This document shows positions 16,509-47,316 of a stretch of 64,000 nucleotides of DNA, in pieces; positions within the stretch are counted from its first letter, which is position 1, and every line of letters begins with the position of its first letter. The notes under the pieces are model-generated. The model saw nothing but the letters and a program-made list of their open reading frames with translations, did not search any database and was not told the DNA's origin. The DNA lies in NCBI RefSeq assembly GCF_000219215.1, contig NC_015726.1:2914001-2978000 (forward strand). Direction: 5' to 3'. Origin of the DNA: Cupriavidus necator N-1 (GTDB taxonomy: Bacteria; Pseudomonadota; Gammaproteobacteria; Burkholderiales; Burkholderiaceae). The position numbers and the translations under genes are program-made.

Positions 16509-16549
16509 GCCAGTCCGGAACCGCTTCTTGGCTGGCGAGTGGCGCGCCC

Positions 16550-16557
16550 ACTGGCGT
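16550..16557. repeat. 8-bp target site duplication, left copy
   Basis: ACTGGCGT directly precedes the left end of the IS256-family element and is repeated exactly at 17944-17951 after its right end. IS256-family elements usually duplicate 8-9 bp. The intact pair shows a simple, probably recent insertion. Confidence 0.9.
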
Positions 16558-17943: not shown

Positions 17944-17951
17944 ACTGGCGT
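17944..17951. repeat. 8-bp target site duplication, right copy
   Basis: ACTGGCGT follows the right inverted repeat and is identical to the left copy at 16550-16557. Confidence 0.9.
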
Positions 17952-18132
17952 CGCCTCCAGTGACCTTTAGAGTTATCTCATTCTCCGCCCGGCCTGTGCC
18001 GCCCCCGCTACTTGCTTGGGTTCCTTGAAGGAGCGGCAACTAACACGTACTTGCGCAGGGTCCCCATGGCTCATCCGCCTCGCTCTAGCACCATTCAGCA
18101 ATGAACCGCGTGACAGGCGGCTGAATGTCGGA

Positions 18133-19218: not shown

Positions 19219-19755
19219 TTAGAAAACCCGAATAGATCCTGCACAGCCTGTTTGTCCGGCTCGTGCAGAGCATGCCCGGAGCACGTCAAGCAGGCTCTTC
19301 CTGTAGCTTACCCTGCTCATCGCAACTTGCGCTCGGTGGAGCGATACGTGAAGAAATGTTGCAGAAGCACGAGCCCAGCCTGAAGTTGGCCGCGATTGTG
19401 CAGGACTATATACTATGTGCACCGCGTCCTGTGCCCCACTGCCCTGCCTTAGGGCCTCCTATCGCTTACAACGGGGGCGGAGTCTTCCCCATTCCATGGC
19501 ATTAACGCCGACAATATCTGCTCTGAATGGCCATTAAGTGCCCACAGGCCAAAGGCGAAGGCAACGGCCCCGGTTACAGTTCGACATACACTTAACAGGC
19601 TGTTGCAAGCAGCAGCCCCTCCAAGACTGGTAGCGGAGTCGGCGGCCCGGGGGCGCCGAAGTGATAGCCATATCCCCGCACACCGATTAAAATATCGCGA
19701 TTCTTCAGGCCTTGGCTGTCGACACGTGACTCGCTGCGATCAAGAGAACAGGACT
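19219..19755. promoter_or_regulatory. intergenic region between divergent wecA-type and GT2 genes; candidate promoters
   Basis: No convincing gene is seen here, and an open frame from 19603 continues into the GT2 gene without family similarity. A good sigma70-like pair TTGGCC (19386-19391) and TATACT (19409-19414) with 17-nt spacing points to the plus strand. A second -10-like TAAAAT lies at 19688-19693, about 65 nt before the chosen GT2 start. The long leader (about 340 nt from the first promoter) may carry regulation, but I recognise no riboswitch or leader peptide. Confidence 0.4.
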
Positions 19756-21941: not shown

Positions 21942-22726
21942 ACAACGCACTGATCGGCTTCTCGGGCTTCGTTGGCACGACGCTTCTTAGGCAAGCCCCT
22001 TTCGAGGCCTTGTACCGCTCGACCAATATTGGCGAGATCGATGGCAAGGACTTTGACACGGTGGTCTGTGCCGGCGCGCCCGCTCAAAAATGGATCGCAA
22101 ATCGCGAGCCGGCAGCAGACCGTGAAAAAATCGAAGCGCTCATCGCCCACCTTCGCACGGTCTCATGCAAGACGTTTGTCCTGATCAGCACTGTCGATGT
22201 GTTCAAGACGCCGGTCGGCGTCGATGAAAGCTCGCCGGTGGACAAGAGCGGATTGCATGCCTATGGCCTGCACCGCCTAATGCTCGAGGAATTCGTCGCC
22301 AGCCATTTCGCGAACCATCTGATCGTCCGCCTGCCTGGCCTGATCGGTCCGAGCCTGCGCAAGAACGTTATCTTCGACTTCCTGAACGACAACAACCTGC
22401 ACGCGATCGACAGTCGTGGCGTCTTCCAGTTCTACCCGATGGTCAATCTCTGGTACGACATCGAAGTCGCGTTGCACGCGGGCCTAAAACTAGTTCACCT
22501 GACCGCCGCACCAATCAGTGTCGCGGACGTGTCGGCTCAGGGCTTCGGCAAGCCGTTCGAGCAGGTGGTGGGTGACAATGCCACCCGCTATGACTTGCGC
22601 ACGCGCCACGCGGCAGTGTTCGGTGCCTCGGGCGTATACCAATATGACCAACGTGCGACGCTGCAGGCGGTCCGCGCATACGCCCAGTCCGAGCCGCGCA
22701 CCTTGAAGGCCGGGAGCGGGGCATGA
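21938..22726 (+). CDS. NAD-dependent epimerase/dehydratase-like (extended SDR) protein
   Basis: This is a short extended-SDR protein of 262 residues. The Rossmann start reads ALIGFSGFVGTTLL, and LISTVDVF matches the SDR strand 5 region. The catalytic tetrad is altered: the usual YxxxK appears as YGLHR, with Arg where Lys is expected, while VRLPGLIGP matches the substrate-loop region. It may be an epimerase or dehydratase variant or a non-catalytic sugar-nucleotide-binding protein. It overlaps both neighbours by 4 nt in ATGA arrangements. Confidence 0.75.
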   Translation: MNNALIGFSGFVGTTLLRQAPFEALYRSTNIGEIDGKDFDTVVCAGAPAQKWIANREPAADREKIEALIAHLRTVSCKTFVLISTVDVFKTPVGVDESSPVDKSGLHAYGLHRLMLEEFVASHFANHLIVRLPGLIGPSLRKNVIFDFLNDNNLHAIDSRGVFQFYPMVNLWYDIEVALHAGLKLVHLTAAPISVADVSAQGFGKPFEQVVGDNATRYDLRTRHAAVFGASGVYQYDQRATLQAVRAYAQSEPRTLKAGSGA

Positions 22727-23559
22727 GAATCGCTATCTCGAACATCGCCTGGGATGTCGCCGAAGACGAGTCTGTGGCGGCGCTGTTGCACAAGTTCGGC
22801 GTCGACGCGATCGACGTAGCCCCTGGCAAATATTTCCCGGATCCCGAACATGCGAGCGATGCCGACATCGCGCGGGTGCGCGATCAGTGGAAGGCACACG
22901 GGATTGAGCTGACCGGCATGCAATCGCTGCTGTTCGGTACTTCCGGGCTCAATCTGTTCGGTTCGTCGGCAGCGCGCTCGGCGATGCTGCATCGCCTCGC
23001 CGCCGTAGCACGGATCGGCGGCAAACTTGGCGCGACCCGACTGGTATTCGGCTCGCCAAGGAATCGGGATCGCGGCGCCCTTGACGATCGTGAGGTTACA
23101 GAGATTGCCGTGCCGTTTTTTCGCGAGCTGGGCGACATTGCGCATGGCCACGGCGTGACGTTCTGCCTCGAGCCCAACCCGGTGTGCTACGGCGCGAATT
23201 TTATGACCACCAGCGCAGAGACCGTGAACATGGTGCGGCTGGTCGCCCATCCGGCTATCCGCATGCAGTTCGACACCGGATCGCTGGCCATCAATGGGGA
23301 AGACCCCGCCGACGTGCTGGAGCACAACGCCGATCTGATCGGTCATGTCCACGCCAGCGAGCCCCAGCTGGTTCCGCTGGGTGATGGCACGACCGACCAC
23401 GCTGCCATGGCTGCACAACTAGCCACGCACCTGCCCGGACACGTCGTCTCCATTGAAATGGTAGCCAAGGCGAACGAGCCGCACCTTCCAGCCATCCAAC
23501 GCGCGCTGGCGACAGCCCAACGCTGGTATCGGCAAGCACCAGGAGTCCCACTCGCATGA
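22723..23559 (+). CDS. sugar phosphate isomerase/epimerase-like TIM barrel protein
   Basis: This is a 278-residue AP-endonuclease-2/xylose-isomerase-like TIM barrel. Metal-site style strands are visible: RLVFGSPRNRD, FCLEPNP (Glu ligand), MQFDTGSLAI (Asp ligand), IGHVHASEPQ (His ligand) and VSIEMVAK (Glu ligand). Members isomerise or epimerise keto-sugars and related compounds. In this operon it may build or tailor the sugar loaded by the GT2 enzymes. It overlaps both neighbours by 4 nt. Confidence 0.8.
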   Translation: MRIAISNIAWDVAEDESVAALLHKFGVDAIDVAPGKYFPDPEHASDADIARVRDQWKAHGIELTGMQSLLFGTSGLNLFGSSAARSAMLHRLAAVARIGGKLGATRLVFGSPRNRDRGALDDREVTEIAVPFFRELGDIAHGHGVTFCLEPNPVCYGANFMTTSAETVNMVRLVAHPAIRMQFDTGSLAINGEDPADVLEHNADLIGHVHASEPQLVPLGDGTTDHAAMAAQLATHLPGHVVSIEMVAKANEPHLPAIQRALATAQRWYRQAPGVPLA

Positions 23560-23912
23560 AATGGCTGATTCTGATTCTAGGCATCGCCAGCAACGCATCG
23601 GCCAGCGTACTGGTCAAGATGGCGATGATTCCCCCCCGCAGATTTCCCTCGCTAAGTGAACCGCTCGCCGCCTTCACCAACTGGCCATTCTGGGTCGGCC
23701 TCGGCCTGTATGGCGCAGCCTTTCTGCTCTATGCCGCGGCGCTTGCCCGGCTGCCGCTCAACGTCGCCCACCCCGTCCTGACATCGGGGGCCGTGGCGAC
23801 GGTAGCAACGCTTTCGGTGCTCATCTTCCGCGAGCCTTTTCACTGGACTACCGGCGCGGGCATCCTGCTTGTCATCGCGGGCGTCGTCCTGATCACCGCC
23901 AAGGTGGCCTGA
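23556..23912 (+). CDS. SMR/EamA-like small membrane transporter, possible lipid-sugar flippase
   Basis: This is a 118-residue protein with four predicted membrane helices, the size and pattern of SMR (EmrE/ArnE) proteins: a first helix with ILGIASNASASVLVKMA, then GLYGAAFLLYAAALARLPLNVAHPVL and a final GAGILLVIAGVVLI. The LPLNVAHPV motif resembles ArnE-type subunits that flip undecaprenyl-phosphate-aminoarabinose. Lying between two GT2 genes and next to a GT-C-like gene, it is a good candidate for flipping polyprenyl-phosphate sugar rather than exporting drugs. That role is an inference. No second subunit is present, so it would act as a homodimer. Confidence 0.8.
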   Translation: MKWLILILGIASNASASVLVKMAMIPPRRFPSLSEPLAAFTNWPFWVGLGLYGAAFLLYAAALARLPLNVAHPVLTSGAVATVATLSVLIFREPFHWTTGAGILLVIAGVVLITAKVA

Positions 23913-23921
23913 CCGTTAACC

Positions 23922-24752
23922 ATGACCCGAACGATGAAATCTGAAATCCCTTCCGACACGCGAGCAACTTGGCAAGTGCCGACGTACGACATCGCGATGT
24001 GGGAGGGGCGACGCCACCCCTGGTGCGTGATCATTCCGGTGATCAACGAAGGCGAGCGCATCCGCACCCTGCTTGCGCGCATGTCGGCCCTGCGGATCGC
24101 GGACATCGCGGACATCGTCATCGTCGACGGCGGAAGCACAGACGGCTCGCTTCAGCACGAGTTCCTGCGCAGCCGGGACGTGGCGGGACTTATCGTCAAG
24201 ACCGGCGCCGGCAGGCTGAGTGCCCAGCTGCGCTGCGCATACGCATTCGCGCTCGATCAGGGCTATGACGGCATCGTGACGATCGATGGCAACGACAAGG
24301 ATGATCCCGAGGCAATTCCGCGTTTCGTGGAAGCGTTGAAGAACGGTGTCGACTTCGTGCAGGCGTCGCGCTTCCTCGCCGGTGGCCTCGCCGAGAACAC
24401 GCCGAAATCGCGAGACCTGGCGATCCGCTTCATTCACGCGCCTGCGCTCAGCCTGAGCTCAGGCTTTCACTGGACAGACACGACGCAAGGCTTCCGGGCC
24501 TACAGCAGCCGTATGCTCCTCGATCCCCTCGTGGCCCCGTTTCGCGATGTCTTTTCGGGCTACGAGCTCCTCGCCTACCTCTCTTACCGCGTACCGAAAC
24601 TGGGCTATCGGTGCCAGGAACTCGCGACGGTGCGCCGTTATCCCAAGGGGGAGGTTCCGACCAAGATCGGCGGCATGCGGGGCAATCTGAAGCTTCTCGA
24701 AGTCCTGTTCCGTGCGTGCGCGGGCCACTACAACCCTAAGGCCGTCTCGTAA
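23922..24752 (+). CDS. GT2-family glycosyltransferase (DPM1-like)
   Basis: This is a 276-residue GT-A enzyme similar in layout to dolichol-phosphate mannose synthases: VIIPVINEGERI, IVIVDGGSTDGSL and IVTIDGNDKDDPE with the DxND-type metal site. QASRFLAGG and a DTTQGFRAYSSRML segment match the acceptor region of DPM-like proteins. It lacks the C-terminal membrane helices of the first GT2 in the operon, so the two may work on different steps. It starts 9 nt after the small transporter and ends directly before the GTG of the large membrane protein. Confidence 0.87.
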   Translation: MTRTMKSEIPSDTRATWQVPTYDIAMWEGRRHPWCVIIPVINEGERIRTLLARMSALRIADIADIVIVDGGSTDGSLQHEFLRSRDVAGLIVKTGAGRLSAQLRCAYAFALDQGYDGIVTIDGNDKDDPEAIPRFVEALKNGVDFVQASRFLAGGLAENTPKSRDLAIRFIHAPALSLSSGFHWTDTTQGFRAYSSRMLLDPLVAPFRDVFSGYELLAYLSYRVPKLGYRCQELATVRRYPKGEVPTKIGGMRGNLKLLEVLFRACAGHYNPKAVS

Positions 24753-27692
24753 GTGACAAGCGTGTCGATCCCACTGCCATCGTTTCCACAAAAGGCCGCG
24801 GCGATCCTGTCGGCTTGTGCCGTCGCCGCCATGGCGCTGTCAGCTGCCCTGACCTTCACGAACGCGCCCGTCTACTCCGACTTCATCGTCGGCAACACCG
24901 CGTGGCACGCGAACACCAAGCTGCAGGACCTAATGGCACCGCCGATCGCGATCCTTGCGTTCATCGCCACGCTGTGGAGCATCGGCGCGCTGCTGCGCAT
25001 CCAGGAATCCAGGCACGGGCAGGCACACGCGGAAGCACTCGCTGGCCAGTTCCTGCTGTGGACGCTTCCGTTCGCCATTGCCGTCGGTCTGCTTGCCGTC
25101 GGCTTTCCCGCAGACCCCAACCTGATACAAATATCAGCCGGCGGCGTGGTCGCGCTTGCGACAATATACGGCTGCGGATCTGGACGCACTTCGCAAATTG
25201 CGCCGGCTACTGCCGGTGTGCTGCTGTTGGCGGCCATGCTGCTGGCTACGCTACCGCTCGCCGGCGCGATCGTACATGGACGATTCTTCACACCGGAAAT
25301 CAGCGCTGCCCGGCTTGCCTCGCTCACGAAAATTTCCCAGGCGCTGATGTGGGCAGGTCTGGTCGCAGCTGCCGCGCTCGCATGCCTCAGGCGCAGTTGG
25401 GCGGAGCGGTGCCTTCCATTTGCCGCGCTTGCCGCGCAGATGGGAACGACGACGCTGATGGTGCTACTGATTCCCGCAGGCTGGCTCACGGCAAATGGAA
25501 CCGGGAGCGGTTACCACACGCACCACCGGCTCGATATCCTGGTCGCCGTGCTCGTCGCATGGGGCGCGGTGGATGCTGTCGTACGCGCCGTCCGGTGGCA
25601 AGCGTCCGTCGATGCAAACCCCGGCGCGCTTTGGTCACCTGTCGCTTTGTTCGGATTGCTCGTGGCGATCAAGAGTGGCATGACCCAAGCGCCGCTTGTG
25701 CCGGCTGATGACTATCACTTCGGCGAGTATCTACTCGGATGGTGGTCCTACCTTCAGGGCGCGGTTCCCTATATCGATTACATTCCGGCGCACGGCATCG
25801 CGGAAGACGATCTGCGCGGCATCGTGGCGGTGCTGTTCTACGACGGTACCGCCGCGGCCATCGGCGACGCCACTCGCCTGGCCAGCGCCTTGCTGTCGCT
25901 CGTCGCCTATATGTGCATGCTGCGTTTCTCGCGCAGCCTGGCGCTGGCGTTCGTTGCAACGTTCATTATCGGCGACCGCCTGCCATGGTTATTCCTGACG
26001 CCATTCATCTGCCTGTGGTGCAGCCCGACGCTGTTCGCCCGTCCGTCGCGCTGGCTAGCATGCTGGCTGTTAACGGTGCCGGTCGCGATTCTTGGGCTCC
26101 CGCCCCAAGCCAGTCTGCTAGTTGCCGGATCGGCGCCGCTGGCGGTATTTGCGATGTGGCGCTGCTGGAAACATCCGGAGCAGCGTGAATGGAAATACCT
26201 GGTGCCGGCACTTCTCCTGCTCGGACTCGCGACACTCGCCACGCCACTGGTGGCGATGCTGCTCGGCGCCGCCCGGTATGTCCTTGAGAACGGCCCAATC
26301 AACCAGGTCGCCTATGGGATTCCCTGGCAGGCGAGCTGGAACGGCGGCCCGCGCTCTGGCCTTTTGTATGAGCTTCTGCGCGGCTCATGGGTGCTGACAC
26401 CCTTGTTCGGGCTCTGGCTAATGCTCAGTGCCCGGCGCGACGCCACCCGGCGCTGGCAGATCCTCCCGCCAGCGATCGTGCTGATGATCTTCGTGCTGCT
26501 GCTTATTCCCTACTCGATGGGACGCATCGACGCCAACGATCTATCGCGGCCTGGCCGCGTCGCCATTTTCAGCTGCGCCGTGCTGCTCCCGATCCTGCTC
26601 TGGCGCGTAGGTCGCCCCGGTCTGCAGGGCGGTGTGCTTGTGCTGGCAGCCGCCATGGGCAGTGCCCTTGGTTTCGGCCCGCTCACAGTGACGCCACTGT
26701 TCGCGGCCTCGCCTTCGCGGATCTGGGTGGGGTCGCCTCGGGACGGGGCATCGGTGGGGCTGCCCAATCTCGGTACCGGGATTGTCCAGGACGACCAATG
26801 GCAGCGCTTGACCGAGCTGCGGGAGCGTGTCGACGCGCGGATTGCGCCCGGCGAGCGCTATCTCGACCTGACCTCGCGCAATGCACAGTACTTCTACCTG
26901 AATCGTCTACCCCCACTGCCCGTCACTGCAGCCTACAACATGGTGCCTGGCCCGCAGCAATTACGCGCCGCCAGAATGATCATGCGCAATCCGCCCAGGC
27001 TGGCACTGTTCAAGGGAGACAACGTCATTCACGACGGCGGCGGCCTCGCGCTGCGCGACCCTCTGCTCTATCGCTTCATCGTCGCACACTACGCGCCGGT
27101 CCAGGATGGACCCTTCATCTTTGGCACCTGGAAGAGCAATGACAGCGCCGCACCCGGCAACGCGGAGCCGACGCCGGCCGAGGTGACGCTGTTGGAAAAT
27201 GCGTTTGCCCCGTCCGATCTGCTGAAGATTCCTGTCGCCTGGGGACGTTCCGACCACAGCCTGCAGCGCAAGATGACGCTGGTCCGAAAACTCGCCCCGA
27301 CGGTCGCCGGCACCTCGGTAAAAGGCGGCGCCCCGGCCGTCGCGCATGGACAGGACCCCATCGCGCTGCCGCTTTCCCCTGCGCTGGCCGGCAAGTCGGC
27401 AGGTCTTCTGCGCATGCGCTTTGCGTGCATCGGCGCCAACGCGCCGCCTCGCCTGCGCGTGCGCTGGTCGACGGATACACTAAGCGCTGACGCCGCGGCC
27501 AGCGGACTCGTGTTCACGGCCGACGAAGGCATATTGATCGTCCCGCTCGACGCTTCGCCCCGCTGGCTGACCGCGCGGGACATCACGGGCATCCGGATCA
27601 ACCTGGAGAATCCGGATGCCTGCAAGAATATCTCGATCGACGATGCCGGACTGTATCAGCGCAACGACGTGGCACACCTGCCGCAATCCTGA
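24753..27692 (+). CDS. large polytopic membrane protein, GT-C-like glycosyltransferase candidate
   Basis: This is a 979-residue protein with many hydrophobic helices in the first 650 residues and a soluble C-terminal part of about 330 residues. Near residue 310 a loop with acidic residues (PADDYHFGEYLLGWW, then PAHGIAEDD) sits between helices, as in GT-C enzymes that take sugars from polyprenyl phosphate in the periplasm. The first soluble segment (YLDLTSRNAQYFYLNR) recalls the periplasmic domains of such proteins. The start codon is a GTG directly after the preceding stop, so translation is coupled. I do not recognise a named family, and the GT-C call rests on topology and context. The acceptor would be O-antigen or another periplasmic glycan. 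Confidence 0.65.
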   Translation: MTSVSIPLPSFPQKAAAILSACAVAAMALSAALTFTNAPVYSDFIVGNTAWHANTKLQDLMAPPIAILAFIATLWSIGALLRIQESRHGQAHAEALAGQFLLWTLPFAIAVGLLAVGFPADPNLIQISAGGVVALATIYGCGSGRTSQIAPATAGVLLLAAMLLATLPLAGAIVHGRFFTPEISAARLASLTKISQALMWAGLVAAAALACLRRSWAERCLPFAALAAQMGTTTLMVLLIPAGWLTANGTGSGYHTHHRLDILVAVLVAWGAVDAVVRAVRWQASVDANPGALWSPVALFGLLVAIKSGMTQAPLVPADDYHFGEYLLGWWSYLQGAVPYIDYIPAHGIAEDDLRGIVAVLFYDGTAAAIGDATRLASALLSLVAYMCMLRFSRSLALAFVATFIIGDRLPWLFLTPFICLWCSPTLFARPSRWLACWLLTVPVAILGLPPQASLLVAGSAPLAVFAMWRCWKHPEQREWKYLVPALLLLGLATLATPLVAMLLGAARYVLENGPINQVAYGIPWQASWNGGPRSGLLYELLRGSWVLTPLFGLWLMLSARRDATRRWQILPPAIVLMIFVLLLIPYSMGRIDANDLSRPGRVAIFSCAVLLPILLWRVGRPGLQGGVLVLAAAMGSALGFGPLTVTPLFAASPSRIWVGSPRDGASVGLPNLGTGIVQDDQWQRLTELRERVDARIAPGERYLDLTSRNAQYFYLNRLPPLPVTAAYNMVPGPQQLRAARMIMRNPPRLALFKGDNVIHDGGGLALRDPLLYRFIVAHYAPVQDGPFIFGTWKSNDSAAPGNAEPTPAEVTLLENAFAPSDLLKIPVAWGRSDHSLQRKMTLVRKLAPTVAGTSVKGGAPAVAHGQDPIALPLSPALAGKSAGLLRMRFACIGANAPPRLRVRWSTDTLSADAAASGLVFTADEGILIVPLDASPRWLTARDITGIRINLENPDACKNISIDDAGLYQRNDVAHLPQS

Positions 27693-27838
27693 CGCCCGGC
27701 AGCCAGCCCGGAGGTAGCACGACGCCGCATGCGCGCATCACAGGCCATGCCTCCTGAAGCACGGACGCATGCCATCTCGCCGATTCAAATGCATCGCAGA
27801 GCGCCAGGCCGACACGGCAATCATGACAGACGGGAACA

Positions 27839-27946
27839 ATGAATCTTCGAGCGCCCGACGGGCCGTCGCTGCGCAACAGCGCCGGCCTGATAGTCCTTGC
27901 AGCGGGAATCGTGGCGGCATTGGTGACCCTGACCACGCTGATCTAG
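27839..27946 (+). pseudogene. 5' fragment of a membrane-protein gene cut by an IS630-type insertion
   Basis: An ATG at 27839 with GGGA upstream opens a frame of 35 codons. A hydrophilic start (MNLRAPDGPSLRNS) runs into one hydrophobic helix (AGLIVLAAGIVAALVTLTTLI), and then a TAG lies exactly at the edge of the IS630 remnant (the CTAG at 27943-27946). This looks like the N-terminus of a membrane protein, probably the eighth gene of the preceding operon, truncated by the insertion at a TA dinucleotide. The rest of the gene is not visible beyond the remnant. It could instead be a chance frame. Confidence 0.45.
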
Positions 27947-28320
27947 TGTCCTGTTCCGCTGATTCGTTCGCAAAGTCTATTTAGCTTGGCGAGAATCGAA
28001 TTCGCGGTGGCCGTCCAGTTGACTGGCTTGCAATTCTGGTTAATGAGCGACGAAGTGATCGACCTTTTGAACGAACTCCTTGACCGACCTGAATGAGCCA
28101 CGACGGATGGCCTTGTCAGTGATGATCGAGAAAAAGCATTCGAATTCAAACAGGAACCGTAGTTAGGGATGAAATGCATGTGCCAGCGCGGACGGGCTGG
28201 CAACCACGCCTTGATCTTGGGGTGCTTATGGCTGCTGTAGTTATCCACGATGCAATGCACATCGAGTTCAGCGGGGACGGCCTTGTCGATCGAACGCAAG
28301 GGATACGAGATACACGGCAC
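27943..28320 (-). pseudogene. degenerate IS630-family transposase fragment
   Basis: Translation on the minus strand gives IDKAVPAELDVHCIVDNYSSHKHPKIKAWL, the second-Asp region of IS630 DDE transposases. It is followed by HMHFIPNYGS and, after a region read out of frame, NQNCKPVNWTATANSILAKL, the C-terminal IS630 signature. The middle part (about 28030-28160), including the expected catalytic Glu, is legible only in another frame, so at least two frameshifts are present. The N-terminal two thirds are missing. The element is dead. Its edge at the TA of CTAG fits the IS630 habit of inserting at TA. Confidence 0.75.
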
Positions 28321-28639: not shown

Positions 28640-29539
28640 CTATCTCGACCCGTCCGCGATGGTGCCGAAGCTCTCCACCACGCGCCCTGTATGCGGATGC
28701 GGCCGTGTCGCAAAATAATCAAAGAAATGTTGCTGCCAAAGGCTGCAGGCAAGATCCATACGCTTCTTCAACTCCGACGTGAAGGAGCCATTCCTGTCGG
28801 CAGCATCTATGTCGTCGCGCATCCGCTGAAGAAGCAAGCGCTCGAATGAATTGACGCAATATGACTCGACCTGCTCCTGATCGAACGCGTAAGCACACGT
28901 TCTGAGCTCAGGATGAACCGCCAAATAGGTGCTAAGCAGCCGTTCAATTATGAAAGGCAGATACGACGCCCTATCGGTATGGGCCGTTTCCTGCATTACG
29001 CCGCGTGCCGCGGTATGATTGGGCTGACCTTCAAGAAAGCGAGCGATGGGCTCCAGCACGCCTCCCACGTATTGATCCCAGAAGGCTTGGCTACCGACCC
29101 AGAAATTGCAGTAGGCCAGGGTACGGAAGTTGTTGCGAGGAGCATGACGCACATCCATGGCCACGCCGCTCGCATCAAGCAAGGCCTGCGCGGCATCGGC
29201 AAGCCCGGGATGGGCATACTCGCCCTGCATCCAGACGTTATAGGACCAGTAGGCGATCTGCGGGAACGGATTGATGAACACGACATCAACTGAGTCATTT
29301 TCCCGCACGAAGCGCAAGAAACGCTCACCGGAAATCCCAGCCTTCAAGCAGAACTTGGGCGAGAACAGCCCCATATGCCGGTGGCGCCGATGCGCGCCGT
29401 TCCGGTAGAGATCGATTAGGAGCTGGAATTCACGCCACTCGGGTCGTGCGTTCTCGAACCGGAGCGGCAGAAAGGCGGGCTCGACGAGTTGCGCTCCTTC
29501 CGCGAAAACCGGTTCAAAGATCGCGATATCGGCGCTCAT
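28640..29539 (-). CDS. unrecognised protein at the end of the polysaccharide operon
   Basis: This is a 299-residue soluble protein without signal peptide or membrane helix. It is aromatic-rich, with a block RHRHMGLFSPKFCLKAGISGERFLRF followed by DVVFINPFPQIAYWSYNVW, then FRTLAYCNFWVGSQAFWDQYV. This gives alternating strand-helix character, but I cannot assign a family or a catalytic motif. It overlaps the histidine phosphatase gene by 4 nt (ATGA), so it belongs to the same translational unit. It is the last gene of the minus-strand cluster. A role in glycan synthesis or modification is suggested only by position. Confidence 0.75.
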   Translation of the reverse strand: MSADIAIFEPVFAEGAQLVEPAFLPLRFENARPEWREFQLLIDLYRNGAHRRHRHMGLFSPKFCLKAGISGERFLRFVRENDSVDVVFINPFPQIAYWSYNVWMQGEYAHPGLADAAQALLDASGVAMDVRHAPRNNFRTLAYCNFWVGSQAFWDQYVGGVLEPIARFLEGQPNHTAARGVMQETAHTDRASYLPFIIERLLSTYLAVHPELRTCAYAFDQEQVESYCVNSFERLLLQRMRDDIDAADRNGSFTSELKKRMDLACSLWQQHFFDYFATRPHPHTGRVVESFGTIADGSR

Positions 29540-31199: not shown

Positions 31200-32183
31200 T
31201 CAAGTATCCTCATTTTCCAGCAACTCGGCTAGCTGGCGCCCAATCACTTCTGCGGAGTGCCGGCTCATCGTGCGTTCGTACGTCGCCTGGATCTTGCGCT
31301 CCCAATCGGCATCCGCGAGGCTCCCCCTGATCGTGGTCGCCAGCGCCTCCGCGGAGTCCGGCGGCGCATACCAGACATCGTCGCCAAAGTGCTCCCGCTG
31401 CCAGGGGCCATCTGCCATGATCATCGGCTTCTTCATGATCGCGGCCTCCAGGCTGGACCGCCCGGGCGGGTCGCTGCTGACCTCCACCATCACGCTGCAG
31501 TTGTCGATGATCGACCGAAGCAACGCACTGCACGGCTGCACAAATGGCAGGAATACGATGCGGCCATGCGCTTCCTCCACGCATTGCCGATAGTACTCGT
31601 CGTCGCGCGCACCGCCGACAAATACGCCATCCATGCCCAGCATGTTCAGGGCGCGAATAAGTTGCAGCTGGTTCTTGACGGGCTCAATCAGACCAAGACA
31701 AAGTGCGTAGTCGCTCGCACCGCAGACCGCAGAAGCCAAGTCCTTATCAACCGGTGCGAGAAAGCGCCGGGACACGCAGGCCGGGACGACCTCCGCCTTG
31801 CCATCAGGCAAGTTCACGTAACGACTGAAGTTCAGCAGCTCAGACTCGGATTTGAACAGCAGCTTGTGCACCACGCCGATGATGCCCTCTATCCGGTCGA
31901 CTTCTGATTGCGACGGCGGCTCGTTCCACCAGACATTCGGCCACAGGAAAATTGGCTTGTTGCGGTGCCGAGCCTCACGAATCATCGCATCGCCATCGGC
32001 GTGAACCGAGAAATGCATGATTCCATCATAGAAGCTGAATGGCCGGCTGCCGATGCCATAGATATCCGCGTGGATACCCGAGGTGTTGAGGATCTCCGCC
32101 ACCTGCACCATTTCAGACTCGCCACCGCCGCTGGTGGCGAAAGCCGTGCTGTAAGTCGTAAGCAAGAACTTCAAGCCGTTCAT
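31200..32183 (-). CDS. GT4-family glycosyltransferase
   Basis: This is a 327-residue GT-B enzyme. The start LLTTYSTAFATSGGGESEMVQ carries the glycine-rich acceptor-side loop. The middle has ALCLGLIEPVKNQLQLIRAL (the RxxxxKN donor-domain motif, here with Glu for Arg), and VEVSSDPPGRSSLEAAIMKKPMIM is the EX7E-like segment. It closely parallels the gene at 37944-38918 (STYPMAFHTPGGGEIQLL and NVGNIEPRKNQLSLVRAM), so the two probably arose by duplication. It overlaps the next upstream gene by 4 nt. Confidence 0.83.
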   Translation of the reverse strand: MNGLKFLLTTYSTAFATSGGGESEMVQVAEILNTSGIHADIYGIGSRPFSFYDGIMHFSVHADGDAMIREARHRNKPIFLWPNVWWNEPPSQSEVDRIEGIIGVVHKLLFKSESELLNFSRYVNLPDGKAEVVPACVSRRFLAPVDKDLASAVCGASDYALCLGLIEPVKNQLQLIRALNMLGMDGVFVGGARDDEYYRQCVEEAHGRIVFLPFVQPCSALLRSIIDNCSVMVEVSSDPPGRSSLEAAIMKKPMIMADGPWQREHFGDDVWYAPPDSAEALATTIRGSLADADWERKIQATYERTMSRHSAEVIGRQLAELLENEDT

Positions 32184-33232
32184 TTGCGACCTCCCTCTCT
32201 GGCAAAGGCAAGCACTTCCGCCCAGTGCGAATCCGATGCCCTGTCCAGCACTTCCAATGCGCGCGAAACGCGCGCCGCGCGGTCAACTGAAGACCCATCC
32301 AAGTGCCGGACGACGCCAGCAGCCCACTTACCAGCAGTCGCATCCGGCGCGTAGACGTCCCCTGCATCGCACAGCTCCTCTGCAGCCGTACCACCCCGGA
32401 CAAGCGCAGGCATGCCCCTGAACATCGCTTCGAGCACCGGCACGCAGAAGCCCTCGTGACGGCTCATGACCAACATGACGTCGCTGTCCTCGAAGCAATC
32501 GAGCAGATCTTCGTCATCGAGCACCCCTTTGAAATCCAGATATTCCAGAATCCCCAGCGCGCGGGCGCGATTGATCAGGTAACGCAAATACTCGTGGTTG
32601 GGCGTACTGCCGACGATCGACAGCGATACCTCGACGTTATCGTGCCGGAGGACTTGCAGGACCTCCAGCGCGTCTTCGATCCGCTTGTGCGGGACCACGC
32701 GCCCAACCATCAACAGGTTCCGGCGCCCGTTCGAACGGGCGCGCGGGCGCCTGCGCTCGAAGCCCGGCATGTCGGCGAACACCGGTGGTATGACATGTAC
32801 CGGTCTATTATCCACTGCCTGAACCAGGCTGCCTGCTGTGAAGTGCGAGTTTGCCACTAGCACATCGAATCCAACGAGGCGCGGCAACTGCCGGATTGCC
32901 TCCGCGCAGAGTTCGGCCGTGCGGGGCTCGAACTCCTGAAGAAGCTCAGGATCCGTGACACCATGAAAATAACAAGCCTTGCGATTCGGAAGCGCCAGCA
33001 GCCTGTCGAGCTGCGGATCGACAATGGAGTAGCTCACCAGCAATAAATCATCAGGAGCGATCTCGTCGAACAAGGCGCTTATCGGGCGGATATCCGCGAC
33101 GCCGATATCGAAATTGCGCGCGTACAACCGCACCTCCCAGCCGGATCGCTGCGCGCAACGCGCAATGCCGAGGCAGTGATTGCCAACGGCGTCTCCGACG
33201 AAGATGTCGATAGCGCAGATCATCAGCCTCAT
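32180..33232 (-). CDS. GT4-family glycosyltransferase
   Basis: This is a 350-residue GT-B glycosyltransferase. The N-terminal domain opens with MICAIDIFVGDAVGNHCLGIAR, and CYFHGVTDPELLQEF is characteristic of WbdA/WbdB-like mannosyl- and rhamnosyltransferases of ABC-exported O-antigens. The donor domain has LMVGRVVPHKRIEDALEVL and VMSRHEGFCVPVLEAMFRGMPAL with the EX7E pair. It overlaps the neighbouring genes by 4 nt on each side. The sugar is probably mannose or rhamnose given the precursor genes of the operon, but this is inference. Confidence 0.87.
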   Translation of the reverse strand: MRLMICAIDIFVGDAVGNHCLGIARCAQRSGWEVRLYARNFDIGVADIRPISALFDEIAPDDLLLVSYSIVDPQLDRLLALPNRKACYFHGVTDPELLQEFEPRTAELCAEAIRQLPRLVGFDVLVANSHFTAGSLVQAVDNRPVHVIPPVFADMPGFERRRPRARSNGRRNLLMVGRVVPHKRIEDALEVLQVLRHDNVEVSLSIVGSTPNHEYLRYLINRARALGILEYLDFKGVLDDEDLLDCFEDSDVMLVMSRHEGFCVPVLEAMFRGMPALVRGGTAAEELCDAGDVYAPDATAGKWAAGVVRHLDGSSVDRAARVSRALEVLDRASDSHWAEVLAFAREGGRK

Positions 33233-35772
33233 TGCTGCCCCCCTTGTACTCCGCCTTCCGCAACGATGGCTTTCAAGCGTGCCTCGTAAGCGCGTGCGAC
33301 CGCGGCAAGCGAGTAACTGTCTTTGATGCGCTCTTGACCAGCGGCCGCAATGCGCGCGCGCTCCTCAGGAGTTTCATAAAGTCGGCGAAGCTGTTGAGCG
33401 GCGATCGACACGTCTGGATCACACCAATATTGGCCTTCACTGAACAGATACTCGCCGGCACGCAACGGAACGAGTTCTCCGTCCACAAGGTACGAAGTCT
33501 GCGGGTCGCAGAAGTCGACATTGCCAGAGAAATTGGTCGCCACGACAGGTTGGCCAAGACCCATGGCTTCGGCGATCACACGCCCAAAGCCCTCGCTGCG
33601 GTGTAGCGAGATGTATGCATCGCAAGCAGCCATGAAATCGACCGAGTCCTGCCGGCTCATGTGTTCGGACACGATCTGAATGCGTGGATCCATTTCTGCC
33701 ATCCGTAGGACACCTTGCCAGGTCGGATCGGAGTCGCGCACGTTCATTGCCTTGATCACAAGGCCGACCGGCTCGTTGTCCGAGCCGAATGCTTTCTGAA
33801 ATGCCTGCACGCCCGCTATTGGGTTCTTGCGGCTGAGCCAGGAGTTACCGTCAAACATCAGATAGAACAGGAAGCGATCTTCAGCCATTCCAAAGCGCTG
33901 ACGATCCGGGTTCACTGGCTTTGGGATCTCAACGGCCATCGGCATGTGGACAACACGTGAGTGACCAAGGCGCTTATAGACCGCTTCGACGAATCGACTC
34001 TGCGCCCAAATTTCGTCCACAAAGCCATGCACCTCACCGAACGCCTGGGGCCAATGGGGCAGCTCCCACGGCCATGCGCCAATCCTGTACGTATTTGAAT
34101 CGATGATCCGGCGGCCGCCCTCGAGCGCAAGACGGACCATCTCCGGTGGTGGCAAGCAGAACAGGGATACGCCGTAGCGCAGATCGGCACTGAGCAGATG
34201 ATCGGCAGAGTGGTCGCGCTTTGCCGGCCCCACCATTGGCGCGTTGACAAGCACCACCGGGACCGACAGGCGTTCGAATACGCGCGCTGCTGTTCGTGCG
34301 TCCTCCCCAAGACCAAGTGAGCCTTGTGGAAAGCCAACGATATTGACGCCAAACGGCAGCATGCCAAAGCGCTGCGTCGCAGCACCTACGTATTGACCAC
34401 GCTCATCATCCAGTTGAACGTCCAAGCCAATCAGTGCCTTGTATTCCTTACTCCCTGAGATTTGCCACCACTGCACAAGTCCGCGTATGCCCTCGACGTT
34501 GCTCAGGTCGAAACTTGCACGAAGGTCTGGGCGCTCCAACCACAGTGCGTAGAGGAACTTTGGCAACGGATGAAGGCTATCGCGCGCCTGGTATGGCTCT
34601 AGCAGGCGTTCCCACTGGCCATCCGCTGACCATTCAAGCATGGGATATTCATTGCGGCCATACTGGTTCCACCATTCGTAGCATGCCAACTGTCCGGTGA
34701 ACGTGTCCACCTGCATTGCCTTCTGCAAATCTGGGCGCATGCTAAAAATGACCGCTAGGAAACGCGGCAGCCTCAAGACGGCTTGCGAATCGTCAGCCAC
34801 GCCGTTCAGATAGTTCCAAAGCGGCGTTGTACTCCAGGCTAGTTTCGAATACTCATGCCGGCCAAAGCGCTCCCACCAATTCGCACATTCGAACAGGCCC
34901 TTCAGGGAGTCCGTCGTCATCGAAAGCGAGAAATCCGTACGCTCCGCCAACAGAGTTTCGAGAAAACGGGGTAGCCGCACCCCGGTCTGGGCGTCGACGC
35001 GCTCGATCTCATTCATCCCGGTCCAAATGCCTGCAGTGGACCAACTGAGACGAGGATACTCTTGCTTACCGTGCCGCTCCCACCAGTTCACGCATGCGAA
35101 CATCCCGAGCAGCGTGTTCGTCGTAAGTACGGGCTTGAGGTCTGGCCGTTCAGCCAGAAGCATTGGGAGGAATCGAGGTGCAGGTATCCCCAGCGCCATT
35201 GGAACACCGGCGGGCTCACTCAGGTGTAGCCATATCGCAGTCGAGCTCCAATTAAGGCGCGGGTACTCTTCGCGCCCGTGTGATTCCCACCAATTCATCG
35301 CCGCTAGTTGCCCGGCAAATGTAGACAGGTCCAACGTCCGGTGCAGATCCGGTCTGCTGTTGATGATCAGGTCCAGAAAGCGCGGGAATTCCTCGATGCC
35401 GCTACCAGCGATAGGGCGGCGCTCGCTCAGTGCACGAATCAGGGGTTCGGGCTCTAGTACATCCGGGGTCGAGCTGCGCAGCCATAGCGCTACGCATTCC
35501 GGAAACTCATCAATCAGCGTATTGCTATCGAACTGATCTATGAATGCCACGTCCTGTTCGCGAAGTTCCCAGTCGAAGTCTGGATAGTCCTTCCGGCCGA
35601 GGGCCTTCCACCAAAAATACAGCACCATCCGCCCACGAACGGTGCGGCTTTCGAAGTGCGCCAAATCAGCCCGAAATTTAATCAGGAAATAGATCGCGCT
35701 AGGTAACGCGAAGGGTGCACTCTCGAGGGGGTGCCGGTATTCGGCAAGCCAACCGGTAATATTCGACTTCAT
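33229..35772 (-). CDS. glycosyltransferase with N-terminal tandem NWW repeats fused to a GT4 domain
   Basis: This 847-residue protein has two parts. Residues about 20-450 hold tandem repeats of about 69 residues built on the pattern LPRFL...ERPDL...NWWERHG..EYPRL.WST. The Trp pairs fall at residues 54, 161, 230, 299, 367 and 435, so the last five are spaced 68-69 apart and the first is divergent. Residues from about 470 onward form a GT-B glycosyltransferase: FGVNIVGFPQGSLGLGEDAR, then LMFDGNSWLSRKNPIAGVQAF, and LHRSEGFGRVIAEAMGLGQPVVAT with the EX7E pair. The repeats carry no known catalytic motif and may bind glycan or partner enzymes. The gene overlaps the downstream GT4 gene by 4 nt and ends 6 nt after the upstream GT2 gene. 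Confidence 0.85.
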   Translation of the reverse strand: MKSNITGWLAEYRHPLESAPFALPSAIYFLIKFRADLAHFESRTVRGRMVLYFWWKALGRKDYPDFDWELREQDVAFIDQFDSNTLIDEFPECVALWLRSSTPDVLEPEPLIRALSERRPIAGSGIEEFPRFLDLIINSRPDLHRTLDLSTFAGQLAAMNWWESHGREEYPRLNWSSTAIWLHLSEPAGVPMALGIPAPRFLPMLLAERPDLKPVLTTNTLLGMFACVNWWERHGKQEYPRLSWSTAGIWTGMNEIERVDAQTGVRLPRFLETLLAERTDFSLSMTTDSLKGLFECANWWERFGRHEYSKLAWSTTPLWNYLNGVADDSQAVLRLPRFLAVIFSMRPDLQKAMQVDTFTGQLACYEWWNQYGRNEYPMLEWSADGQWERLLEPYQARDSLHPLPKFLYALWLERPDLRASFDLSNVEGIRGLVQWWQISGSKEYKALIGLDVQLDDERGQYVGAATQRFGMLPFGVNIVGFPQGSLGLGEDARTAARVFERLSVPVVLVNAPMVGPAKRDHSADHLLSADLRYGVSLFCLPPPEMVRLALEGGRRIIDSNTYRIGAWPWELPHWPQAFGEVHGFVDEIWAQSRFVEAVYKRLGHSRVVHMPMAVEIPKPVNPDRQRFGMAEDRFLFYLMFDGNSWLSRKNPIAGVQAFQKAFGSDNEPVGLVIKAMNVRDSDPTWQGVLRMAEMDPRIQIVSEHMSRQDSVDFMAACDAYISLHRSEGFGRVIAEAMGLGQPVVATNFSGNVDFCDPQTSYLVDGELVPLRAGEYLFSEGQYWCDPDVSIAAQQLRRLYETPEERARIAAAGQERIKDSYSLAAVARAYEARLKAIVAEGGVQGGQQ
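34423..35415 (-). repeat. five in-gene tandem repeats of about 207 bp coding for the NWW modules
   Basis: Within the 847-residue glycosyltransferase gene, codons about 120-450 encode five consecutive modules with Trp-Trp pairs at residues 161, 230, 299, 367 and 435. The protein period is 68-69 residues. Shared elements per module are a PRFL-type helix start, ERPDL or a variant, a WW pair, G(R/K)xEYP and a WS near the end. DNA identity between copies looks moderate, so the array seems old rather than newly amplified. Confidence 0.85.
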
Positions 35773-35778: not shown

Positions 35779-37947
35779 TCAATGCGAACCGGGGACACGC
35801 GAATACATGGCAATCGCGAAGTCTTCCGAATCCAAAGTGAGATTGGGGGAGTAGCAGCGGTCATTCAGGAGTTTCTCACCCCAGCGGGATTTGACGAAGG
35901 CAATCTCGCGGTCAAACCGCGCCTTCTTCTCGGGCGTATCCTCATATCCTCGCGACGCCGATTCGTGATGATAAAGTTCGGCATACGGCGTCCACACGTT
36001 GCGATAACCAGCCCGCTGCACGCGCAGGCAGAAGTCGACATCATTGAAGGCGACTTCCAGCTGCTCGTCGAGACCGCCAACCTCCTTGTAAATCGATGCC
36101 CGAATCAGCAGGCAGGCTGCCGTCACGGCGCTCATGTCGCTACGCAGCAGCGTCCGATAGAAATAGCCTGGGGCGTGGCGCGGCGAATGCTTGTGCGAAT
36201 GCCCCGCTACGCCTCCCAGGCCGACGATCACGCCGGCATGCTGAACCGTATCGTCGGGATAGAGCAGCTTCGCACCCACCGCACCGACCCTGTCCTGAAC
36301 CGCCAATGACACCATCTCGGTAAGCCAGTCCGGGTCAATGACTTCGATGTCATTGTTTATCAGACAAATGAAGTCGGCATCGCTGGCCAATGCTACTCGG
36401 TTATTGATTCTCGAATAGTTAAAGGGGGATTCGTCACGTGAAACGCGGATGTGTGCGTCGCCCGCATAGGATGCGAACAGATCAAACGTCGGCTGTTCGG
36501 TCGAGCCGTTGTCGATGATGGTGATCACATAGTTCGCGTATGTCGTCTTCTCACGAATTGAATCGACACACTGGCGAACGAGAACTGCAGCGTCGCGCGT
36601 TGGGATGATGATCTCCACGCGCGGCAACTTTTCCGGCAGGGAATAAACAACCTTGTTGAAGCCGCTCGCTCGCGGTGCGGGCTCTACCGTGCCTGAGACG
36701 CCTATGCGCACTAGGTGATCGGCGATTGCACGCTGCGCAGCAGTCGAAGCATAGGGCTTCACCTCATGGCTCGACGCGGTGCTCTGCGGAATCAGTCTCC
36801 AGTGATACAAAACCCTGGGCACATGGTGCACGGCGTCACTGCCGTAGGCATCCATCACGCGCAATGCGAGGTCATAGTCCTGCGCACCCTCAAAGCCTAT
36901 GCGAAACCCTCCCACTTCATGCAATGCGGCCGTCTTGTAGACGGAAAAGTGACAGATCATATTCTGGCTCAGGAAGAGCGCATAGTTGAGATCGCACTTG
37001 AAATAAGGCTCCGAGCGGACACCTTCCACGGAAATCTTGTCCTCGTCGCTGTATAGCAGAACGGCATCTGGCCTTGCGTTGATCGCCTCGACCATATGGA
37101 ACAGCGCAAGTGGATGTAGCTCGTCGTCGTGATCCAGCAGGCCGACATACTCGCCCGCCGCCATCTCGATTGCGGTATTGCTCGCCGCACTGATGTGACC
37201 GTTGGTCTCGCGATAGGTCACCTTAATGCGTGGATCGCGTGCGGCATAGGCATCGAGTATTTCGCGAACATGCGGTTCAGACGAACAGTCGTCCGCGACG
37301 CAAAGCTCCCAACGATCGTAGACCTGCCCGGCTACCGACTCGATAGCCTTCTGGAGCCATTGCGCCGGCGTGTTGTAGGTCGGCATCGCAATGCTGATCA
37401 GCGGCCGCTGGGCCCAACGCGCAGCGCATTCGCGATAGCGCGGGTAGTTCGCCGGCGACGGCTCGTTGTTCTCGATCCAGCGGTCGTAGCTCAGATCAAC
37501 CTGATTACCTGCGCAGCTCGAACCATTGCCAATACTCTCATCCGTCACAACTATGCGCCGCGAGTCGGGCTCGGCCTGATCGACACCGCCGACAATCTCG
37601 ATACGCAGATCAAGCACTGAGAACAAGCCCGGATGCGAGACCGCATCGAATCGCAAACCACGCAGCGACGCCGGGAAAACTATCTCCTGATCTACGAAAC
37701 CATCAGGATCGACATTGAAATAGATAGCACCCTGCTCCGACAGGCCCGCACCGACATCAACATAGAGCACGCAGGGCGAACGGCGCAGATGCTTGGTGGC
37801 AAGCCTGAATGAGAACCGCACAACCTGCTCTCGCATCTGCTCCCAGCCCTCTATCAGGAATTGAGGATCTCCGGAGATTGCCTGCCACTGGAACGCGGCT
37901 TCCGTGGCGGCCTCGACGTTCCTGAATGCTTTCAGTTGGATTTTCAT
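35779..37947 (-). CDS. bimodular GT2 glycosyltransferase
   Basis: This is a 722-residue protein with two tandem GT-A domains. An N-terminal domain of about 180 residues looks beta-rich and is not a GT. The first GT2 domain starts at about residue 183 (ISIAMPTYNTPAQWL), with the metal site LLDHDDE at 271-276 and later GAQDYDLALRV. The second starts near 445 (VEIIIPTRDAAVLV), with CLINNDIEVIDPDWL as its metal site and a later EVAFNDVDFCLRV. Two active sites suggest two linkages made by one polypeptide, as in WbbO-like or WsaE-like polymer synthases. The gene overlaps the upstream GT4 gene by 4 nt. Confidence 0.9.
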   Translation of the reverse strand: MKIQLKAFRNVEAATEAAFQWQAISGDPQFLIEGWEQMREQVVRFSFRLATKHLRRSPCVLYVDVGAGLSEQGAIYFNVDPDGFVDQEIVFPASLRGLRFDAVSHPGLFSVLDLRIEIVGGVDQAEPDSRRIVVTDESIGNGSSCAGNQVDLSYDRWIENNEPSPANYPRYRECAARWAQRPLISIAMPTYNTPAQWLQKAIESVAGQVYDRWELCVADDCSSEPHVREILDAYAARDPRIKVTYRETNGHISAASNTAIEMAAGEYVGLLDHDDELHPLALFHMVEAINARPDAVLLYSDEDKISVEGVRSEPYFKCDLNYALFLSQNMICHFSVYKTAALHEVGGFRIGFEGAQDYDLALRVMDAYGSDAVHHVPRVLYHWRLIPQSTASSHEVKPYASTAAQRAIADHLVRIGVSGTVEPAPRASGFNKVVYSLPEKLPRVEIIIPTRDAAVLVRQCVDSIREKTTYANYVITIIDNGSTEQPTFDLFASYAGDAHIRVSRDESPFNYSRINNRVALASDADFICLINNDIEVIDPDWLTEMVSLAVQDRVGAVGAKLLYPDDTVQHAGVIVGLGGVAGHSHKHSPRHAPGYFYRTLLRSDMSAVTAACLLIRASIYKEVGGLDEQLEVAFNDVDFCLRVQRAGYRNVWTPYAELYHHESASRGYEDTPEKKARFDREIAFVKSRWGEKLLNDRCYSPNLTLDSEDFAIAMYSRVPGSH

Positions 37948-45716: not shown

Positions 45717-46475
45717 TCAGCCTGCCTCCTGCCACGTCACTTCTTCGGCCGCTGCGGGAGCAATCGGAGTATCGGATACGATGCTGCCGTGCTGCATTTC
45801 GATTCGCCGAGTGCAAATCCGCTGCACCATATTCGGGTCATGTGAGGCAACCACCAGGATCGAGGCATTGCTAACCAACGCCCCGAGCCGCTTCTCGGCC
45901 TTCTCGGCAAAAGCAGCATCACCGACGCTCAACCATTCATCCATGATCAATATGTCTGCCTCAACACTCGTCGAGATAGCAAACGCCAGGCGCAACATCA
46001 TGCCGCTCGAATACGTCCGTACCGGCAAGTTCAGGTATTCGTCCAACTCGCTGAAATCGGCAATCTCATCAATCTTGCTGCGGATCTTTGCCGGTGTCAG
46101 GCCATCCAGAATACCGCGAAGATAAATGTTCTCGAAGCCTGTCGCATCAGGGTCCAGTCCCATTGACACGTCGAGCAGCGAGGCGATCTTGCCCTTTGTT
46201 TCCAGCATACCGCTCACCGGGGCGTAGACTCCGGACAGTGTCCGCAACAGCGTGGTCTTGCCCGAACCGTTGTGGCCGACCAAAGCAATCCGCTCGCCAT
46301 CAGAAAAGCGGAAACTAAGCTGATCCAGCGCCGTCACTACCGCGTGATTGCCTGCATCCCGGCCAATCCGGCCCCCGGTTGTCAGGTTCAACACCGCCTT
46401 TTTGAGTGAACGATGCGAGTTTTCGTAGATGGGAAAGGAAACCGAAATTTCCCGGGCATTAATGTATGAACTCAC
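45717..46475 (-). CDS. wzt: polysaccharide ABC exporter ATPase, short form without C-terminal domain
   Basis: This is the nucleotide-binding subunit of a Wzm/Wzt (or KpsMT) exporter, about 252 residues. The Walker A is GHNGSGKTT (about 67-75), the signature YSSGMMLRLAF, and the Walker B LIMDEWLSVGD is followed by the switch His in VVASHD. The protein stops soon after this. It lacks the 150-200 residue carbohydrate-binding domain of O9a-type Wzt, so it should not recognise a terminal cap. The GTG at 46475 follows the wzm stop by 4 nt; an ATG at 46499 inside wzm is an alternative. Confidence 0.93.
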   Translation of the reverse strand: MSSYINAREISVSFPIYENSHRSLKKAVLNLTTGGRIGRDAGNHAVVTALDQLSFRFSDGERIALVGHNGSGKTTLLRTLSGVYAPVSGMLETKGKIASLLDVSMGLDPDATGFENIYLRGILDGLTPAKIRSKIDEIADFSELDEYLNLPVRTYSSGMMLRLAFAISTSVEADILIMDEWLSVGDAAFAEKAEKRLGALVSNASILVVASHDPNMVQRICTRRIEMQHGSIVSDTPIAPAAAEEVTWQEAG

Positions 46476-46479
46476 GATG

Positions 46480-47316
46480 TCACAGCCAGTAAGGAACACG
46501 GTTGCGATAGCGACGCATCAACATTTGCGCGACCGCAAAGCCAAACACCAGCAAACCGATTGACCATGCCCACGACTCCCAATGGAGAGGCCGACCGGTG
46601 ATTGGCGCGCGAACCGTCTCGATCAGGTGGTACAACGGGTTATATTCGGCCACCCAGCTGCGCTCTTTCAATATCTCCGGCGACCACATAACCGGCGTGA
46701 AGAAAAACACAATCTGGATCAAATTGCCGACGATTGGCGGAATGTCGCGGAACCGCGCGCACAAGACGCCGAGCGAGACGCCGACCCAAATGCCGTGTAG
46801 AAGCAACAGCAGGAGAGCCAGCGGCACCAGAAAAAACTCCCAGGTCGGCCAGTGACCGAACGCGATCAGCACGATCACCACTACCGGGAGGCTATGCAGC
46901 AAGATCGCAAAATTACGCCACGCGATCCGGCAAACGTGAATTGTCAACGGAATCCGAACCTGTTTGATCAGGTATGCCGCCCCAATAAACGACAAGCAGC
47001 CTTCATTGGCCACTGCACCAATGAACTGCCATACCACCAGGCCGACAGCCAAGTATGGAAGATAGTCGCGGATTTCCTGGTGCAGCAACGTTGAATACAA
47101 CGCCCCAAGAACCACGACCATGATTGCCGTGCTCAGCGTGAACCAGAATGGTCCAATGACCGAGCGTCGATACCGCTGCTTGATGTCATGCCAGCCTAGC
47201 GTTCCCCAGATCCGCGCCGAGCGAATGCCGATGATCAGGTCATCGTTCCCAGCATGCTCCGCGAGATGCCGTTCCGTGCGTCCAGTTGCTGCAATATCCA
47301 TATCAGACACGTCCAT
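46480..47316 (-). CDS. wzm: polysaccharide ABC exporter permease
   Basis: This is a 278-residue ABC-2 type membrane subunit with six predicted helices. The cytoplasmic start has WHDIKQRYRRSVIGPFWFTLS, a hallmark of Wzm/KpsM proteins, and the C-terminal part has FFFTPVMWSPEIL and YNPLYHLIETVRAPI. It pairs with the Wzt gene downstream to export lipid-linked polysaccharide across the inner membrane. The gene starts inside the end of manC (14-nt overlap), so translation is coupled. A second ATG at 47301 is also possible. Confidence 0.95.
   Translation of the reverse strand: MDVSDMDIAATGRTERHLAEHAGNDDLIIGIRSARIWGTLGWHDIKQRYRRSVIGPFWFTLSTAIMVVVLGALYSTLLHQEIRDYLPYLAVGLVVWQFIGAVANEGCLSFIGAAYLIKQVRIPLTIHVCRIAWRNFAILLHSLPVVVIVLIAFGHWPTWEFFLVPLALLLLLLHGIWVGVSLGVLCARFRDIPPIVGNLIQIVFFFTPVMWSPEILKERSWVAEYNPLYHLIETVRAPITGRPLHWESWAWSIGLLVFGFAVAQMLMRRYRNRVPYWL

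Follow-up and report, generated by a model that had tools for sequence, protein, structure and literature searches.

A small helical module amplified into an array and fused to a predicted GT4 glycosyltransferase in a polysaccharide gene cluster of Cupriavidus necator N-1

The window analysed here is a 64,000-nucleotide (64-kb) stretch of the Cupriavidus necator N-1 genome [NC_015726.1, positions 2,914,001 to 2,978,000] that carries a polysaccharide gene cluster. One gene of this cluster, referred to as the array gene, predicts a protein of 847 amino acids (aa) in which six related units precede a GT4 glycosyltransferase (GT) domain (Table 1). In its N-terminal half, a small helical module that is present singly in many bacterial polysaccharide glycosyltransferases has been amplified into an array. 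Trp-Trp pairs are found at residues 54, 161, 230, 299, 367 and 435, and a 48-position profile recognises the six units at 54-78 bits, with shuffled sequences scoring 6.7 bits or less. The consensus of the unit family is LPRFLALLLKERPDLQAAFDLDTFSGRLALLSWWEEHGQEEYPRLKWS. The C-terminal part is a predicted GT4 glycosyltransferase that matches Pfam Glycos_transf_1 (37.9 bits, gathering score 26.4) and includes both domains of the GT-B fold. The initial annotation had reported the six Trp-Trp pairs and a GT4 domain from about residue 470, and every detail of that observation that was checked is correct. Only one family of DNA-level repeats, with two 17-base copies, is present inside the array, indicating from this divergence that the unit copies are old in the window lineage.

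Table 1. The array gene, its parts and selected genes of the cluster, with positions in the window.
Feature	Position	Strand	Basis or remark
Array gene, 847 aa; unit array (residues 1-465) followed by GT4 glycosyltransferase	33229..35772	minus	
Unit 1, distal tip type, best conserved (residues 23-69)	35566..35706	minus	unit profile
Region between units 1 and 2 (residues 70-128)	35389..35565	minus	four predicted helices, no unit match
Unit 2 (residues 129-176)	35245..35388	minus	unit profile
Unit 3 (residues 199-245)	35038..35178	minus	unit profile
Unit 4 (residues 267-314)	34831..34974	minus	unit profile
Unit 5 (residues 335-382)	34627..34770	minus	unit profile
Unit 6, C-terminal unit (residues 403-447)	34432..34566	minus	unit profile
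GT4 catalytic domain, predicted GT-B fold (residues 472-842)	33247..34359	minus	
Downstream GT4 gene, 350 aa; 4-base overlap with array gene; frequent neighbour in relatives	32180..33232	minus	
Double GT2 gene upstream, 722 aa; separated from array gene by 6 bases; frequent neighbour in relatives	35779..37947	minus	
Wzt ATPase, 260 aa, no Wzt_C domain	45717..46499	minus	
Wzm permease of polysaccharide exporter of the ATP-binding cassette (ABC) type	46480..47316	minus	

The first Trp of the pair is kept in 99% of array units and in 98% of other units. Of the 510 aligned units that come from proteins with at least 4 units, 98% have the second, versus 20% of 63 units from proteins with fewer, and the doubled Trp is thus typical of arrays. 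In the redundant set of proteins with at least 5 units, the first Trp occurs in 478/478 units and the second in 476/478 (71/71 first, 336/336 internal and 69/71 last units). Columns 1, 2, 46 and 47 of the unit profile, which are biased by local alignment ends, were left unused. Trp makes up 4.9% of the array versus 1.9% of the GT domain. The only charged positions conserved in more than 65% of array units are R12 and D14, and units of the other class share both (80 and 78%). The net charge of the array is negative in 74/74 proteins, with a mean of -3.7 per 100 aa. Mean pairwise identity, compared over 62 proteins, is 0.68 for unit 1, 0.54, 0.54 and 0.52 for units 2, 3 and the last unit, 0.76 for the GT domain and 0.26-0.47 for the stretches between units, and the distal tip is therefore better conserved than the remainder of the array. 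Beyond the first pair, successive unit starts are 68-70 residues apart in 287 of 303 cases. The array of P0050 (Actimicrobium) has spacings of 107, 66, 107, 66, 107 and 70 residues. Three successive copies of a block made up of tip unit, gap and array unit would produce such a pattern, which would be another route of N-terminal lengthening.

No family in Pfam or NCBIfam scored above cutoff for residues 1-470. The best was Qua1 (Pfam, E 0.27), the sole hit outside the GT part, and no tetratricopeptide repeat (TPR) or other helical-repeat family of Pfam matched the units above cutoff. PDB sequence searches with the whole protein gave matches to the GT part only, and a 52-row profile of the unit found nothing below E 0.14 for the unit. 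The earlier statement that no named family covers the repeats thus holds for Pfam, NCBIfam and PDB sequences. Structure prediction, which the initial annotation had proposed for the repeat region, was run on residues 1-465 and gave a mostly helical model (mean predicted local distance difference test 87.6; predicted template modelling score, pTM, 0.73) with helices of 18 residues or less. A fold search with the array model found no match in BFVD and PDB at E≤0.001, which does not prove a new fold, and structure searches gave no fold match between the array and a known carbohydrate-binding module (CBM).

When 5.8 billion proteins were searched with the array, 53 of the 7999 candidates scored reached E≤1e-5, each including GT4 Pfam domains. 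Together with the window protein, these 54 proteins have 5 (7 proteins), 6 (16), 7 (21), 8 (3) or 9 (7) units. A search for arrays without a glycosyltransferase, a check put forward in the initial annotation, scored the 8000 candidates of approximately 250-800 aa sharing most words with the query, and the 6 array matches among them all carry GT4 Pfam domains. Array matches were found in 3/399 genomes of the order and 12/398 of the family, and unit profile matches in 12/398 genomes of the phylum, the host being included in each count. The 398 genomes scanned with the unit profile were not selected by GT, and in 10 of the 11 non-host genomes the matches lie in GT4 or GT-A-like open reading frames (ORFs), the match in the eleventh lying in a short broken frame. 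A scan of genome contigs with the full-length alignment, from which the best 79 loci were kept, found at least one unit in 52.

Ninety-one unit-bearing ORFs were classified in a redundant set, biased in that most loci were fetched by GT similarity. These comprise 55 ORFs with 2-10 units before GT4, 13 with one unit before GT4, 12 with a GT-A-like part followed by one unit, 9 in which a GT-A-like part, the unit and GT4 are fused in this order, and two short or cut ORFs. The unit is thus part of a GT4 or GT-A-like protein in 89/91, the exceptions being a 104-aa ORF and an ORF cut by the locus end. Where both GT parts are fused, the module is located at the GT-A-like/GT4 junction, and separate genes for GT-A-like-unit and unit-GT4 proteins adjoin in loci L027, L028, L033, L038 and L046. 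A GT-A-like query retrieved 3952 relatives at E≤1e-5 among 7997 scored, and the unit is present in 120/120 of the relatives listed (P0055-P0174), positioned toward the C-terminus in the 12 inspected. This query has no Pfam match at E≤0.05, and the relative in L027 has a sub-threshold match to GT8. Among the source names shown for this family, to which L086:1375-2664 belongs, most read 'hypothetical protein' or 'group 1 glycosyl transferase'. Within what was sampled, the unit is therefore a glycosyltransferase accessory module, and the window protein belongs to a subset that amplified it. The fusion of repeat and glycosyltransferase described in the initial annotation is real, though not exclusive, as the module occurs in many GT proteins. 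Unlisted in the copies of Pfam and NCBIfam used, it is shared by many GT4 enzymes and by a GT-A-like family with thousands of members.

Two long ORFs, L134:7982-12334 (1451 aa) and L135:7961-11827 (1289 aa), have 8 and 7 diverged units before GT4, preceded by approximately 390-480 residues without a Pfam match, and several homologues of window cluster genes are nearby. In Enterovibrio, the ORF L058:12530-13351, truncated at the end of the locus, is the second one with a unit, and a frame of 1726 residues in this genome gives a second GT4 match.

The number of units changes frequently, with at least 25 changes required on a tree of 89 GT4 domains from proteins with 3-10 units, a tree made by a quick method in which several deep branches are unsure. 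Identity is 99.5% between the GT domains of L014 (9 units) and P0046 (7), and 94.9% between those of P0011 (9) and P0051 (5), two proteins that both bear the name Paraburkholderia youngii. Loci with 5, 6 and 9 units (L011, L006, L013) share one mapped gene order, loci with 7, 7 and 9 (L007, L016, L014) have a second arrangement in common, and L008 and L010 also agree in order, with 7 and 10. Seven compared neighbour genes are 82-91% identical between L016 (7) and L014 (9), and compared neighbours share 78-89% identity between L010 (10) and L016 and 72-89% between L009 (9) and L131 (7). Of these loci, L014 is from Paraburkholderia tuberum STM678 (9 units), L010 from P. ultramafica LMG 28614 (10), L009 from P. 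ribeironis STM 7296 (9), L008 from Paraburkholderia sp. BCC1886 (7) and L011 from P. aspalathi LMG 27731 (5). Copy number thus varies within a conserved cluster, and natural strains whose transferases are alike but which have 7, 9 or 10 units can be used to test repeat number against polymer length.

Internal units two apart are the most alike in P0005, P0011, P0016 and L013, all with 9 units (mean identity 0.66-0.73 versus 0.51-0.57 for neighbours), suggesting duplication of two-unit blocks. The corresponding difference is small in P0020-P0022 (9 units), and P0015, P0007 and P0010 exhibit single-unit duplications. Identity between units of one protein reaches 96% in P0015, and 91% for units two apart in P0005, L013 and L014. 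A two-unit period does not hold as a rule. The 27 chosen proteins of one clade have only 5, 7 or 9 units, but L010, of the same clade, has 10. Elsewhere, P0007, P0010 and P0015 show steps of one unit, and the identity taken over all proteins is 0.48 two apart and 0.46 between neighbours. P0054 and P0046, both named Paraburkholderia sp. MM5384-R2, are identical from approximately residue 376 of P0046 to the end and different before it, and appear to include a recombinant array, present either as two genes or as two alleles. Array matches in 10 searched genomes are frames of one length at one place per genome, i.e. one gene.

The 4-base overlap with the downstream gene and the 6-base distance from the upstream gene give the array gene the appearance of belonging to one operon. 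In addition to Wzm and Wzt, the cluster includes rmlBADC and genes predicting a GMP_PMI (ManC-like) enzyme, a PaaK-like ligase, a histidine phosphatase, a polysaccharide deacetylase-like protein, a WecB-like epimerase and seven further glycosyltransferases. The count of seven other transferases agrees with the initial annotation, the 355-aa one being under the Pfam cutoff, as does the observation that the window Wzt lacks a cap-recognition domain. As both Wzm and Wzt are present, the cluster is predicted to be of the ABC-transporter-dependent type. No description of the array, the module or the cluster was found in titles and abstract openings of the literature, and the available parts of PMC11841133 and PMC9834719 deal with clusters other than the window type. 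No other ORF of the window contains the unit.

Mapping of relative loci displays only genes similar to those of the window. In L006-L011, L013, L014, L016, L128-L131 and L133, the array gene is flanked by the double GT2 gene on one side and the 350-aa GT gene on the other, and the same flanks, with approximately 1.7 kb extra in between, are found in Rahnella L015 and Rouxiella L069. In L012, L125 and L126, one of the two flanking GT genes was not found by similarity mapping. In 20 of 25 genomes tested, a Wzm (at least 41% identity) and the array gene are no more than approximately 30 kb apart, and a Wzt open frame of 244-285 aa adjoins this Wzm in all 20, the window Wzt being the one among them scanned with Pfam. 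Two Hydrogenophaga genomes, with 4 units, have a 464-468 aa Wzt frame that includes Wzt_C on the same contig, approximately 14-18 kb from the array gene. In both genomes a second Wzm/Wzt pair is located on another contig, with a Wzt slightly closer to that of the window (41-42% versus 38-39%), so the pairing of array gene and Wzt_C-bearing Wzt is one of proximity only. In the remaining 3 of the 25 genomes, the exporter genes are on another contig or approximately 300 kb from the array gene.

O-GlcNAc transferase provides a precedent for helical repeats N-terminal to a GT-B enzyme, in the form of a TPR superhelix. The window array differs in having no TPR match in Pfam, and fold searches with it returned no significant match. 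Compared with GT4 (GT-B fold) retaining glycosyltransferases, the window protein differs by the approximately 450 residues of unit array in front. Like WbdD and WbbB, it is an enzyme encoded in a Wzm/Wzt cluster and extended by helical structure. In those systems, according to the accessible part of PMC11231755, coiled coils separate the terminating enzyme from the polymerase and Wzt carries a CBM, whereas the window protein has a repeat array and no fused terminator, and the window Wzt is without CBM. For the array protein, the one member of the cluster examined for coiled coils, a coiled-coil ruler of this kind is not supported: the model of residues 1-465 has no extended coiled coil, no terminating-enzyme family scores above cutoff in residues 1-470, and the 260-aa Wzt lacks Wzt_C. 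PglH is likewise a GT4 enzyme, with a ruler helix that limits additions; as far as described in the available text of PMC5792488, this is a single amphipathic helix with three positively charged side chains, as opposed to the acidic multi-unit array found here.

The fusions of GT-A-like part, unit and GT4, and the adjoining separate genes, suggest that the two GT parts act together. Add-on domains of glycosyltransferases are often docking or oligomerisation devices, as in TarM and WbdD. On the basis of this precedent and the place of the module at GT-A-like/GT4 junctions, the reading tentatively put first is that the array is a helical docking boom in a polysaccharide assembly complex. The array would pack into a boom carried by the cytoplasmic GT4 enzyme, with a conserved tip that would dock a component of the Wzm/Wzt assembly complex, either another transferase or the growing acceptor, keeping successive sugar additions together. 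The tip and the catalytic end would then weigh more than the exact number of middle units. Several points count against a docking boom. As 27 of the 79 relatives of the GT4 subfamily have no unit, the enzyme part can work without the array. The full-length model has a pTM of only 0.47. Searches of the host genome returned no partner carrying a matching unit, and unit-unit docking would thus require self-association. In addition, a role in sugar stacking would explain the second Trp equally well. The proposal in the initial annotation that the array scaffolds the other seven transferases is unlikely in the form of one docking site per operon transferase, which was rejected because loci alike in mapped gene order have 5, 6 and 9 units.

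A less probable, though possible, role is that of a glycan-binding platform, in which sugar-stacking sites, one formed by the Trp pair of each unit, would keep hold of the nascent chain and give the GT4 enzyme processivity. The near-constant second Trp of array units, rare in other units, and the high Trp content are consistent with this, and retention of the residue in first, internal and last units indicates that it is not tied to a one-sided neighbour. However, the second Trp may merely pack helices, no additional polar ligand site accompanies it (R12 and D14 being common to units of the other class), and the array has no fold match to a known CBM. It is unlikely that the array is a tolerated spacer, resized by unequal recombination and without a length-dependent function, although near-identical units within proteins, block duplications and the hybrid array of P0054 relative to P0046 would all be expected from such drift. 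Both Trp residues are almost always kept and the spacing is regular, which argues that the units are constrained, a point that applies to the units and not to their number. Ranked below drift, and doubtful, is a chain-length ruler in which copy number sets the distance from a tip-bound partner to the catalytic site and hence polymer length. The anatomy fits, with a conserved tip, middle units variable in number and a conserved catalytic end, and clusters as alike as L016 and L014 differ in copy number. Frequent copy-number change equally fits drift, however, and the window protein has no fused terminating enzyme such as that of WbbB or WbdD (PMC11231755, in the part available). The initial annotation had reasoned that a Wzt without a cap-recognition domain makes another length control necessary. 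This is contradicted by Klebsiella pneumoniae O1/O2a, where, in the same source, a transporter without a carbohydrate-binding domain manages without a ruler, length being governed by the stoichiometry of transporter to synthesis, and also by the occurrence of a 4-unit array near a CBM-bearing Wzt in the two Hydrogenophaga genomes. Least likely of all is the fuller form, a modular and evolvable ruler in which the units between the conserved tip and GT4 would set polymer length where Wzt lacks cap recognition, and bacteria would tune it by adding or deleting units, often two at once.

The G+C content of the cluster (window positions 28000-52000) is 56-61%, compared with 66-70% from 54000 onwards and 54-65% over 16000-28000, and the polysaccharide cluster region may have been transferred. 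A 979-aa ORF at 24753-27692 on the plus strand has no Pfam or NCBIfam match at E≤0.001. The 299-aa protein predicted at 28640-29539 also has no match in Pfam (E≤0.001) or NCBIfam (E≤1e-5), and many loci have a homologue of it close to the array gene, on one strand or the other.

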